Shown in pieces: positions 57,210 to 63,945 of a stretch of 64,000 nt of DNA. Below the pieces are notes generated by a model. The model had not been told where the DNA came from, searched no databases, and was given only the letters and a program-made list of their open reading frames with translations. Numbering within the stretch: position 1 is the stretch's first letter; each line of letters starts with the position of its first letter. The DNA is from Candidatus Altimarinota bacterium (GTDB lineage Bacteria; Patescibacteriota; Gracilibacteria; BD1-5; UBA6164), in assembly GCA_025210615.1 (NCBI GenBank), contig JAOARJ010000010.1, positions 1 to 64,000 of the forward strand. The letters are read 5' to 3'. Both the position numbers and the translations under genes were made by a program.

Positions 57210-57743
57210 TTATATTTCAACTTTTATTTTTTCTAATTCTTCTAATTCTTGGATTAAGTTATTTTTAAGTTTTTCTATTTTTTCATATTTTTCAGCTATT
57301 TCTTTTTGTTTGTCTAAATCAAAATTTCAATTTTTATCTAAAGGAATGCTTATATCTATATCATTTATTTGATTATTTCATAATTTATTATTTCAATATC
57401 ATTTAGATTTTTCAAAAAATTTATTTTGCAAAATTAATTCTACAAAATGTAAATCAAGATTATCAACCCTAGGAATTAAAATTCCACAATGGTTATTTAT
57501 CGTAAAATAGAATTCATCTTTTTGTTCATTGTTTGCATTATTTTGATTTCTAACAAATAATTTTCAAGCATATCAATCAATAGACCAAGTTAAACAATAT
57601 TGATAAAATAGTTCATTTTCTTTTATATGTTTTTTGTCTATTCAAATCAATAATCAATTTTCTTTAGTATTTGATGAATATACAGGAATATTTCAAATCC
57701 AATTATTTTCTAATAATCATTTTTGTTTTAATTCTTCAGACAT
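57210..57743 (-). CDS. Half-size type I restriction specificity (HsdS-like) protein
   Basis: 177 residues. One target-recognition-like domain ends with the conserved block NNQINDIDISIPLDKNG, then DLDKQKEIAEKYEKIEKL and a helical coiled tail; this is the typical end of an HsdS half. Full HsdS has two such halves. No hsdM or hsdR gene lies in the window. It may dimerise to serve an unlinked methyltransferase or be a remnant of a phase-variable S gene. TGA glycines are frequent. Confidence 0.7.
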
Positions 57744-58004
57744 AATCAAAATTTTTATGAGTAAAGTTATAATGTTAATTATTTTCAAGAAAAAAGCAAA
57801 AAATAATTTACGGCATTATTATATATAATGAGTAAAATAAAGCAAATATAAAAAGAAAGATAGTTTTTTTATAATTAATCTATATTTTCTCTTTGCTAAA
57901 AATCTTTAAAATTATAAAAATTATGTCGAACCTTAAGTAATTATATTTATAAAGCGAAAATATACTTATTTTACATAGGACAAAAGATGTTTAGAATTTC
58001 TGTT
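57744..58004. other. Gene-free stretch before element 3
   Basis: A/T-rich. An extra GTCGAACCTTAAG box is at about 57923. No gene or RNA is recognised. Confidence 0.4.
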
Positions 58005-58250: not shown

Positions 58251-60110
58251 TTAAACTTTAACAATATCTTCTATAATAGATAAAATTATTTTAAAATTAT
58301 CTAAAGCAATTTTTTCAAATCAATTCACTTCATTCAATATATTTTCAGCAAAATTATTTTTAGTTAAAGCTATACTGTTTTCTGTTTTATAATCATCATA
58401 ATGATAAACTTTTTCATCTATAATAGTATCCTTTGTACATTTGTCTTTTTTTATAGTTTGATATCTTCAATTTTTACTATTTCAATTTTGTAAAAATTCT
58501 GTTCATAAAAATAATCTTCTTCAATTGTCATCTTCTAATATTAAATCACTATCGTTATAATAATGTTCAATACATACATTGTCAAAAGTTCTGAAATTTG
58601 GTTTAGGTATAGCAAATGAATAAATATTATTTCACCAATTTTTAGGTTTTCATTCTTTTTCTACTTTGTTGATTATATTTTTATTATCCCTATCAAATAT
58701 AAATATTATTTTTTCTGAATGAGGGGTTTTAGAATATTGTTGACACATATTTAATAATTCATTATCTCACATTTTTATATCTTCATCATATTCTAAAAAA
58801 TTTATATCCAAATTAGAATAATTTGGGTTAAATTTTTTTAAAGCAGCTTTTAAATGTTTCCAGTCAGTTTTTCATTCAGTAATAATTAAAGGTTTATTTT
58901 CTAATTCTAAATTTTGTATTTTTTCTTTTACATCCTCTAATTTTTTATTTTCAGCTTTTAATTCTGATATACGATCTTCTTGATTTGAAATTTTTTCATA
59001 AAATTCTCTATTCACAATTTCAAGCTCTATGTAATTATGTTTTTGAACTTTTTCTATTCTTTCAGAAGCATTTTTCTTAAATACTTCATAAAAAATAGCA
59101 TAATTAGGAGTAAGAGAAATGGTTGCTGGAGAATGAGTAACTATTATTACTTGGATTCATTTCTTTATAAAATATGTATCTAAAATTTGAAAAAACATTT
59201 TTATTAAAGAAGGATTTAACGTTGCATCAAACTCATCAAGCAATAGTATTTTTATATCCTCTTTTTTGATTCAGCTTAAAGATCAAAAAACAAAAGAAAT
59301 AATTGCTTTTTCTCAATCTGACAGATCATTTAAATCTCTTGATTGATCTTCATCAATACTTCAATCTTTTTTAATTCAATATAATTTAGGTTGTTCATTG
59401 ATTTGTGAATTACTAATTTTATAATTAGTTTTAAATCTATATTCAAACCCTACCTTTCAAAATAATTCATTAAATTCTACCCAAGGAGCTATTCAGATCT
59501 CATAATCAAAATTTATTTCAGAAGATAATATTCATTCATCAGATTTTTTAGCCTTTAATTCTAATTTTCTGCTTGCATAGTTAAAAAAAATATCTCAAAT
59601 AAAATTAGTAAATATATCATCTGTTTTCCATATAAAAGTATTTGGAATTGCTTCATCAATTTCTTCTCTTGTTAGTCTTCAAGAATCAAATTTAATATCT
59701 CAATATTTATCAATCAAATATTTTCTGGCTAGTTTAGATGATTGTTGAAAATTTTTCAAACTCTGATCTCTTAGGTTTAAACGAGTTTTTATATAATGAC
59801 CAGAAACTATATTTTTGTAGTTTATAATATTCTGAGGAGTTGCTTGAGTCAAATTGGGGATGTTTATATTTTCTCTAATAGATCTATATAAAATATTTCA
59901 TATTTGTAAAATATTTCCATCCAATATTATGTTTGCTTTTATGGAACTCACTCCATTATGAGAATCCTCATTCTTAATAATATTAAGTAACTGAGACTTT
60001 CAACTTCAATTGACTCAAGAAATTATAATTAAATCTCATTCAAATTCTTGTCTAAATCAAGCATCAAAAGATTTATAGTCTTGATTTAATGTTATACTTA
60101 AATTTTTCAT
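58251..60110 (-). CDS. AAA ATPase with C-terminal Toprim domain (OLD/PARIS-like)
   Basis: 619 residues. ABC-type ATPase: Walker A GVNGSGKSQLL (about 36), signature LSDGEKAIISF (about 263), Walker B ILLLDEFDATLNP (about 290) and H-loop VIIVTHSP. After a coiled-coil (SNQEDRISELKAENKKLEDVKEKI) a Toprim-like part follows: LIITEGKTDWKHL (about 405) and IIFIFDRDNKN. This is the order of OLD-family nucleases and of fused PARIS-type AriA-AriB proteins, both antiphage systems. All three Walker A glycines are TGA. It lies downstream of a membrane protein and a nuclease-STAND gene. Confidence 0.85.
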
Positions 60111-60758: not shown

Positions 60759-63125
60759 TTAGTCTCTATAAAAGATATCATCAATATCTTGACTATAGTC
60801 TATACTTCAGCCTCATCTATGATCAATATCAGGCTCATAATCTGAATCTTCTAAATCTTTTAGATAATCTTTAACTATTTGGTCTATATCTAAGCTAGAG
60901 TTCCTTACAATAGATTGATAATCTATGTTTAAATTTTCTATAAAAACTTTTCCAAATAATGGATCATAATAAATATTATCTACTATTTCATCATAAATAC
61001 CTTCTTTGTCTATTATTATTTCATAAGCTCAATATTCACTATATGCATCATATTGTACAAAATTTTCAAAACTTATTGACATAATATCAAAATTTCAAAT
61101 GCTACTAGATAATTCTTCCTCTAAAAGTGATTCAATATTGTTTGATATTAGTTCTAGTAATTTTTCATTGTCTTTTTTAAATGATTCAAAATCATTATAA
61201 TTATTTTTATAAAAATCATCTAGTATCTCAATTACATATTCTAGTTCTGAATCTAAATCAACTTGCTCTAAATATTCAATTAAAAAATCTAAGCTTTTAA
61301 TATCTATTTTAGATCAATAGGTATACAATAAGGATAAAAAATCATAATAATTACTAATTTCTTTATATTCTTCAACAAATCATTTTAAAGTATCAATAAT
61401 AATTTTTTCATTTTTTCCTCAAGATTCAAACAATTTTAAAAACTCTAAAATATAATCATTATCCATTAAATCTTTTGAAATAAGTTTCCATACTTGGTTT
61501 ATTATTTGAGTGTAACTTTTTTTCGTTACTATTTTGTTATATTCTAATGATTTTATTTCTTTCACAGAATCTATGGTTTGTAAAGATGAAAAAATATTGA
61601 CTAGTTCCTTATTATCACTTGAACAATCATTTAATACAAAATCTCAAAGAGAAGGATTAAGCCATTTATATGTCACATCTCAATTAGAAGCATCTATATT
61701 TCTATTTAAAAATGATCCAACACAAGGCTTAATTACTGAATTAAAACTTTTATCGGCTTTTCAATCATTTATTATTCTTTTTGCCTCAACAAAATTATCA
61801 TAAGCATTTCTTAGATCTTCTTCTCTGATGCTTCATCAATTATAAACAACTAATTTAATAATTCATCTAATGTATTCATTTGAACATTTTTCTCAATAAA
61901 AAACTCAAGACCAAATTTCAGCAGGATTATCTAAAGTATTTTTAATATATTTCCAATAGTTTTCGGGATTGATCGAAAGCTCTTCTATCCTATCTTTATC
62001 AATAATAAATTCTATAAGTCTAGGGTTAAAATTACTATGTTTAGTTATTTTACGGTATTTTTTATTTTCATAAATCTTGTCTATATAATCATCATCTAAA
62101 TTACTGAAGAAAATATGATTATATAATATCCAAGCTTTATCTATTTCATTTAAACTCTTAATAGTTAGTAAGAATTCGTTTTTATAAGTATTACTTTGCC
62201 TTATTTTATCGCTAAACAGTTTTCATTGGACTAATATATTCGTTCTAGAGGTTAAAATAAATAGTTTGTTTTTAGATTCGGAAACTCTTTTTATAAAATT
62301 GATTATATGAGAGTCTTTCTTTCATTCTAATAATTCTAGGTAGTTACTTCCTAAAAAATCATCATAATAAAATAACTGTTTTTTATCTTTTTCCCAAATA
62401 CTCTCTGCCTCATTCAAAGGATCTTGAATTTCTATCAATTCATAAGTTTCTTCTGATTCTTCACGAGGAATAAGAAAATCTAAGGCAATATTGTTAGCTA
62501 AAGTTGTTTTTCAAATTCAAGGCTCTCATGATATAATAAGGACATTTTTGTCAATTAGTTTATCTTTAGCTTTATTATGATTATCAGTAAAAACATATTT
62601 ATTTATTTTATCTTCTCTAGTAATTTGTTGAAATAAAAATTCGCTTCTTCATTTTATAGAATTATTAAAAATATTTTCTAATACATGAGTACTATTCAGC
62701 CATAATTTATAATATTTTTTTTCTATTTCCTTATTTTCAAATAATAATTTATTTAAGTCTTCTCTTCAAAAAATATCATCATCTCTTTTAATATAAGGGG
62801 AAAAGATATCCTTTATTTCTTTTTTATTATCTCTAGATAATTCTTGAGAAGTAACAAAAATATATTTTTGGGGATTAAGTTTTTTTACCTTTTTAACCTC
62901 TTCGCTTTTTAGTTTGCTTTTTAAACCACTATAAGATGTTTTTAGATAATGTTTACACTGAATAATAATTTCTTCATCAGTATTACTAAAAAATCTTCAA
63001 TCAACTCATCAATCTCTTCATCACTTAAATATTTCAATGTTAGTTTTATATTTTATTGATAATAAATCCGCCGACAATTGTTCAAATTCTCTGTCATTTA
63101 ACTGCTGAAAATTATAATCATACAT
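60759..63125 (-). CDS. Mrr-like nuclease-STAND NTPase fusion
   Basis: 788 residues. The N-terminal restriction-endonuclease domain reads LNDREFEQLSADLLS, GGRDGGVDGRFF and IIIQCKHYLKTS, the D...Q-x-K core of Mrr-type PD-(D/E)xK nucleases. A STAND-type NTPase follows: Walker A ISGEPGIGKTTLANNIAL (about 201), Walker B KQLFYYDDFLG (about 255) and sensor LFILTSRTN. The last about 430 residues are helical and Asp/Glu-rich, a candidate sensor region. This fits nSTAND3/Avs-like antiphage proteins, in which target recognition activates the nuclease. All three P-loop glycines are TGA. Confidence 0.88.
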
Positions 63126-63245: not shown

Positions 63246-63273
63246 TTGTATTTTAAAGCAAAATCAATACTAT
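63246..63273 (+). promoter_or_regulatory. Promoter of the structured RNA
   Basis: TTGTAT (63246-63251), a 16-base spacer and TACTAT (63268-63273). The predicted +1, about seven bases on, coincides with the first bases of the long helix at 63278. Confidence 0.6.
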
Positions 63274-63277
63274 AGGC

Positions 63278-63422
63278 TTACCACACCTATTACATTCAAG
63301 CTTAATATAGCTAATTGAAGGGCAACTTGTGTTTCTAACCCTTTTTGCTGTATTTAGCTTTAGGTAGTAGGTGTGGTAATCTACAAGAGCATAGGTTGTC
63401 CTTTTTTTATTTTCTCCTATGC
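63278..63422 (+). ncRNA. Candidate structured RNA with long hairpin and pseudoknot
   Basis: TTACCACACCTATTAC (63278-63293) pairs over 16 bp with GTAGTAGGTGTGGTAA (63364-63379), including one U-G that favours the plus strand. Inside, 63298-63311 pairs with 63347-63360 (13 of 14), and AAGGG (63318) pairs with CCCTT (63339). The loop stretch GGGCAAC (63320-63326) can alternatively pair with GTTGTCC (63395-63401), directly followed by T7. A further 7-bp hairpin GCATAGG/CCTATGC spans 63389-63422. There is no reading frame. It is unlike any family I recognise. Confidence 0.65.
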
Positions 63423-63447
63423 CTTCTTAATATCTAACTTTCTATCT

Positions 63448-63945
63448 ATGAAAAAAGTTTTAAAAGAATGGTTCATAAAACACCCTATTATTTATACATT
63501 TATTGTAATGGCAATAATTTGATGAATAATTTCAGGTAACAAAGAAAATAAAGATCAACCACAAGAAATAATACAAGCAGAAACAACTAAAGAATCTTTA
63601 CAGAATACAGAAAATTTTAATATTTTACCTGAATTTATTTCAGCAAAACAAATGGTAAATTGAAAATGTAGATATTTCTTTATGATAAAGAATAATGATT
63701 CTACAAATTTTGAATGAACTGTTAAAATAAATTTAATAAATCTAAAATGAAAAAAAATTTGGAAAGACGAATTCTTTACAGAAACTTCAATTGTTCCCGA
63801 CACGGGTAATTTGTTCCGTATTGAAATAAGCACCTGCCCTGTTAGTATATTTTGAGAATATTGAATTGATTCATTTTCATTTGAAGCTTTTAAAAGTTGA
63901 AGGATTGTAAATTCTTGAACCTGAAAAATAACATTTAGTGATTAA
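63448..63945 (+). CDS. Membrane-anchored protein of unknown function
   Basis: 165 residues. A basic start and one hydrophobic helix (IIYTFIVMAIIWGIISG) precede an Asn/Glu-rich linker and an extracytoplasmic beta-sandwich-like domain (RYFFMIKNNDSTNFEGTVKI, ISTCPVSIFGEYG) with two Cys. It begins 26 bases after the structured RNA region and reads the same way, so the RNA could be its leader. Many TGA glycines. No family is recognised. Confidence 0.7.

Follow-up and report, generated by a model that had tools for sequence, protein, structure and literature searches.

A putative family of alternatively pairing RNA leaders ahead of restriction-modification and surface genes in Gracilibacteria

What function resides in the DNA between a divergent defence gene and a small ORF was the question raised by positions 63246–63447 of the window, the stretch of 64,000 nt of contig JAOARJ010000010.1 (Candidatus Altimarinota bacterium, assembly GCA_025210615.1) that was analysed as a whole. 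A preliminary description had placed there a promoter-driven RNA with two exclusive folds, regarded as a possible sensor, antitoxin-like RNA or leader of the gene at 63448. The genome uses code 25, in which TGA codes for glycine, and its ORFs are sensible under this code only. The features of the locus and its two flanking genes are as follows.

60759–63125, minus strand: gene for an Mrr-type nuclease–nSTAND3 NTPase fusion, divergent from the leader (PADLOC PDC-S73).
63246–63273, plus strand: promoter-like site TTGTAT-N16-TACTAT, read from the sequence (TTGTAT at 63246–63251, TACTAT at 63268–63273).
63276–63311, plus strand: 5' strand of the rod hairpin, with segment A1 at the base and the upper rod above it (from the fold; the base covaries in relatives).
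63320–63334, plus strand: apex strand of the long-range helix (P12a), forming 15 contiguous pairs with 63387–63401 (the helix covaries in 48 relatives).
63347–63379, plus strand: 3' strand of the rod hairpin, ending in segment A1' (from the fold and from covariation of the rod base).
63387–63401, plus strand: tail strand of the long-range helix (P12b; from its pairing with the apex and covariation in relatives).
63402–63408, plus strand: run of seven T right behind P12b that would supply the U-tract in the terminator-like fold (sequence).
63416–63422, plus strand: CCTATGC, complementary to 63389–63395 (inverted repeat I14; part of the minimum-energy fold).
63448–63945, plus strand: ORF of 165 aa (code 25) for a membrane-anchored protein, starting 39 nt past the T7 run.

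The product of the 63448 ORF matched no Pfam family above the cut-off and showed weak N-terminal similarity to two other proteins encoded behind leaders of the family described below. On the opposite side, the 60759–63125 product was a full-length match to the candidate defence family PDC-S73 (E = 1.8e-227). The adjoining gene (58251–60110, minus strand) encodes an ABC-type ATPase whose C-terminal part matched RT-Toprim models in their Toprim part (E = 3e-37) and which is a possible OLD-like nuclease. A short ORF at 57210–57788 (minus strand) matched type I specificity subunits in their C-terminal part only and is probably a fragment.

The rod hairpin of about 30 bp lies between the promoter-like site and the 63448 ORF. 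The minimum-energy fold (−57.6 kcal/mol, z = −7.0, with none of 200 shuffles as good) holds a 16-bp helix (63278–63293/63364–63379), a second helix of 5 + 8 pairs (63298–63311/63347–63360) and an inner stem, which are the 16-bp, 13-bp and inner stems described before. The pairing of 63320–63326 with 63395–63401 proposed alongside them was genuine and had been understated, as it extends to 15 uninterrupted pairs, five of them G-U, between 63320–63334 and 63387–63401. The energy of this apex–tail duplex was −24.2 kcal/mol versus −5.0 for the competing inner (apical) hairpin, to which a part of P12a also contributes, and was matched by none of 2000 tail shuffles. The U-run can also pair with the AAA ahead of the apex and could merely extend the helix. 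The TTGTAT-N16-TACTAT promoter described earlier is present in the sequence, and the relatives have such a promoter before the rod; the site was absent from the output of a consensus promoter scan of the window run with stricter thresholds. Its −10 element is separated from the rod base by 2 nt as against 6–8 nt in relatives, which makes it an outlier, and with so short a gap transcription would begin a few bases inside the rod and not exactly at the start of the helix, as had been proposed.

Nucleotide BLAST detected no convincing copies of similar DNA in the genome of the window, and in related genomes it recognised, because the rods diverge, no homologue beyond a single weak 94-nt match in a same-family genome. 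The stems differed in this match, and the apex (GGGCAACTT-TGTT) and the tail (AGTTGTCC-T6) were the same and equally spaced. This conserved pair was the key to the relatives. A pattern built from both parts and run on 353 genomes of the class revealed nine loci; they lay in seven genomes, all from the window's own family, and a reversed control pattern gave none. A covariance model of the apex–tail helix alone (R1) yielded about 48 members from that family, which served to build a second model (R2), the T-run being part of the search models. Within the family, 31 of 48 genomes had R2 matches; outside it the figure was 17 of 29 for the rest of the order and 4 of 276 for the remainder of the class. 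One of these four (G174) has the leader architecture, and the other three have terminators or nothing. Among 379 further genomes across the phylum there were three matches, of which one, L204 from outside the order, looked genuine, with a rod and an apex–tail helix before a serine recombinase gene. The matches in G514, G371, G296 and G347, read by eye, were ordinary terminators, and that in G335 contained no element.

The family thus found numbers about 95 relatives, and almost all of them belong to the window's own Gracilibacteria order, which uses genetic code 25. Up to 7 or 8 copies occur per genome, ahead of unrelated genes, and many lie near contig ends; the R2 search assigned four copies, one of them weak, to the window genome, where the window copy had a modest score (E = 1e-8). 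Such a distribution, together with the relative in another family that precedes a serine recombinase, might be expected of repeats acting as DNA, namely as the termini of a mobile or recombining unit that carries single genes. The copies of one genome are unlike each other, BLAST gave no similar DNA in the own genome, pattern scans of viral contigs detected no leader, and the promoter–rod spacing, the U-run and the strand-specific, G-U-rich covariation presented below also speak against this explanation, which we regard as very improbable. An integron attC site was rejected on sequence, as GTTGTCC does not satisfy the GTTRRRY box. In Rfam searches of the window and 20 related loci only tRNAs exceeded the gathering score, in agreement with the earlier statement that no known family fits; sub-threshold matches in the window to MIR9563 (a microRNA precursor model, which scored best among them) and rli51 were chance hairpin matches. 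In the literature searched, mostly outside subscription journals and preprints, no structured RNAs in Gracilibacteria and no attenuators of restriction-modification genes were found; an earlier description is possible, and the RNA leader family is apparently undescribed so far.

The structure was compared among the relatives. In a MAFFT alignment of 48 members, 97.0% of the cells of the apex–tail helix were paired (83.6% in shuffled data), changes on both sides were present in 9 of 12 pairs, with 86 such cells versus 27 ± 6 in shuffles, and slid registers reached at most 53% pairing. G-U cells were common and non-standard cells rare in this alignment, and such pairing fits an RNA of the leader strand. 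Some members change both strands wholesale, for example GGAGGAAA with TTTCCTCC, and the helix measures 12–16 bp across the members. The rods of the relatives had a mean z of −6.5, with 48 of 49 below −2, and the base pairs A1:A1' covary at many positions. Behind the U-run, most members contain a segment named A2, which pairs with the rod 3' strand A1' over up to 23 bp; the duplex energies were −18.1 for own, −12.4 for crossed and −6.6 for shuffled partners, and compensatory changes occur among the relatives. Since both A1 and A2 pair with A1', they compete for it. A fourth segment, A2', sits just ahead of a hairpin preceding the ORF and fits A1 better than does the A2' of members with another A1 type; among 61 long leaders the A1:A2' values were −9.05 (own), −6.45 (crossed) and −4.5 (shuffled). 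A1:A2' is the weakest-supported helix, with modest evidence because many members have the same A1, and a pairing of A2 with A2' was unsupported in the duplex comparisons.

The same relations were observed in 47 R2 members outside model building, a set that is partly independent, because R2 demands the apex–tail helix and the T-run, though not rod pairing, promoter or ORF. Among the 44 parsable members, 43 had a helix of 9 bp or more and 43 an ORF start within 160 nt; the mean z of the rods was −6.6, and A1':A2 gave −17.7 against −12.1 when crossed. With the rod base and A1':A2 both covarying and the apex–tail helix covarying as well, helices that exclude each other are conserved, and the predicted structure is well supported by the comparative evidence. 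The idea of two exclusive folds, one of them terminator-like with T7 behind the tail strand, has thereby gained ground, and compensatory changes, the absence of which in homologous regions had been named in the preliminary description as grounds for refutation, were found.

Neither A2 nor A2' nor a second terminator is clearly recognisable in the window copy itself. CCTATGC at 63416–63422 could, according to the folding, sequester the tail strand after read-through and so take the part of A2 as a window-specific counterpart. The copy appears to be a short, divergent member, which may be degenerate or represent a short type.

The transcription signals of the relatives were also positioned with regularity. 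In 41 of 47 and 33 of 40 members (74/87), 6–8 nt separated the rod base from the end of the −10 element of the best sigma-70-like site, a spacing found in 14% of shuffled sequence; because this spacing is conserved, transcription most likely starts at or near the rod base. The members read had a U-run directly behind the apex–tail helix. In 40 of 48 members, versus 6.7% of random positions, a same-strand ORF of 50 aa or more began 15–80 nt past the U-run; members usually have such a start within 100 nt, and in most of them the distance was 28–75 nt. A second terminator-like stem, a hairpin with T-run at the start codon, was detected for 40 of 87 leader ORFs versus 22 of 438 other ORFs (p = 2e-20) and not detected for about half of the downstream ORFs. 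One member (L079:4001-4150) has no ORF behind it, and a convergent tRNA gene appears next on the other strand. The upstream neighbours of the leaders vary in kind and strand, and a functional tie to the divergent nuclease–STAND gene, suggested earlier for the window, was rejected on this ground; the antitoxin-like role was likewise unsupported. A leader peptide from the ATG at the apex (MLLCPLSFI and similar) was discarded, as start codon and peptide are unconserved and the ORF is very variable in length and missing in many members.

The promoter and U-run present in nearly every member might also delimit a free-standing small RNA of about 130–150 nt, its 3' end locked by the apex–tail helix, which would act in trans or be structural while the gene is transcribed separately. 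The length and stability of the rod, as well as the member lacking an ORF, would suit such an RNA. It is nevertheless unlikely: the ORF often begins too near the U-run for a second promoter, A2 coevolves with the rod although it lies beyond the U-run, 19 of the 21 EcoRI-type methyltransferase genes of the order with the upstream region present are preceded by a leader, and apex and rod differ between the copies of one genome, so no common trans target is visible. The comparative data strongly favour the remaining proposal of the preliminary description, a leader of the gene behind, which in the window is the same-strand ORF close behind the U-run.

The genes behind the leaders were surveyed through 86 downstream proteins. 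They included 15 EcoRI-type adenine methyltransferases, seven N6/N4 and three C5 methyltransferases and single matches to Tsp45I, type III restriction, Mrr and SWI2/SNF2 families; zinc-ribbon membrane proteins, subtilases and nucleases also occurred, as did pilin-like and secreted proteins, and many products could be assigned to no family. DNA methyltransferases or restriction enzymes thus constitute about a third of the genes, and the family is strongly linked to restriction-modification genes as the gene downstream. The downstream genes are metabolically unrelated to each other. One EcoRI-type methyltransferase gene (L210, G015:C489) lacks both TGA codons and a leader in a genome otherwise of the order, and its contig is perhaps foreign or recently transferred. 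In another locus (L028:2152-3912, contig C2 64151-65911), a recombinase-like protein is encoded by two adjacent ORFs behind the leader gene, which may be compared with L204.

Taken together, the locus is rather probably a cis-acting 5' leader that steers transcription of the next gene (63448 in the window) via alternative pairing, and it is most likely that the leaders decide whether the gene behind them gets transcribed. The promoter position, the rod, the apex–tail helix, A1':A2 and the same-strand downstream gene are the parts established by sequence comparison, from which we infer termination as the output, and its direction. The transcript would begin at or near the rod base, and mutually exclusive folds would arise during its synthesis. 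In one, the rod would be closed at its base (A1:A1') and topped by a small apical hairpin; the alternative would pair the tail strand before the U-run with the apex over 12–16 bp, giving a G+C-based stem directly followed by the U-run, the shape of an intrinsic terminator. Once polymerase had passed the U-run, A2 would be exposed in most members and take the rod 3' strand from A1, and the freed A1 would pair with A2' at the foot of the second terminator hairpin, often ending at the start codon. As A2 lies behind the U-run, it alone cannot prevent termination there; the A1':A2 and A1:A2' pairings would arise once read-through had occurred and would influence the second terminator. The leader would likely function as a two-step transcription attenuator that holds the expression of accessory genes, such as those of methyltransferases, restriction enzymes and surface or secreted proteins, at a low or conditional level. 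By reasoning, not calculation, a closed rod and a complete apex–tail helix would be sterically hard to combine, because a linker of about 10–15 nt would have to span some 30–40 bp; the rod base therefore probably opens in concert with apex–tail zipping, and "alternative fold" is a safer term than the "pseudoknot" used before, of which the long-range pairing stands.

Two serial terminator-like sites before many ORFs would need an antiterminator, and the leader might bind a protein, the ribosome, RNA polymerase or a ligand, as a processive antitermination element or riboswitch with the folds as the read-out. The conserved stretches GCGAACA and TGTTYGC, which adjoin the switch, could be viewed in the same way; however, their conservation is explained by the predicted A1':A2 pairing, and hardly any other unpaired sequence is conserved. 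With no Rfam match, no candidate ligand and metabolically unrelated targets, this reading is quite doubtful. For a metabolite riboswitch in particular, the conserved positions lie mainly in pairing segments. Leader copies with different P12 strands were found within one genome (G048), where apex and rod sequences vary, which argues against one trans-acting reader or one conserved antisense RNA. As the P12 and rod sequences differ between copies even in one genome, the switch of the preferred cis-acting leader is probably self-contained. A bolder version, possible but on the whole not expected, is a ligand-free and aptamer-free switch giving each accessory gene (methyltransferase, restriction enzyme, pilin or secreted protein) an orthogonal two-terminator lock of its own. 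Cells would then differ or respond in the genes that are on, which in these tiny bacteria would amount to phase variation at the RNA level.

If the leader reading is true, the family would represent a regulatory RNA that is widespread in Gracilibacteria, where none was described in the literature searched, and one leader architecture would join restriction-modification and surface genes. Its design would be one in which rod apex and tail zip into a terminator stem and the rod base has competing partners up- and downstream, and its approximately 95 natural variants supply covarying cases ready for testing.

The leader shares features with three types of known systems. Riboswitches of the preQ1 and SAM-II type combine a pseudoknot with a terminator platform. 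They resemble the Gracilibacteria leader as pseudoknot-capable leaders coupled to a terminator-like stem, whereas the latter lacks a conserved aptamer core and an Rfam match and precedes metabolically unrelated genes. The put RNA of HK022 and the EAR element are processive antitermination leaders; like them, the Gracilibacteria leader is structured, lies ahead of terminators and has surface genes among its targets, but it shows no sequence match to known families. The trp-type four-segment attenuators are alike in the ordered segments with exclusive 1:2 and 2:3 pairings, in the terminator-like hairpins within the leader and in the gene directly behind. In contrast to them, the Gracilibacteria leader has no conserved leader peptide, the apex ATG being absent in many members, and its targets do not belong to one pathway; it pairs segments 1:4 rather than 3:4 and possesses an extra long-range helix between apex and tail.
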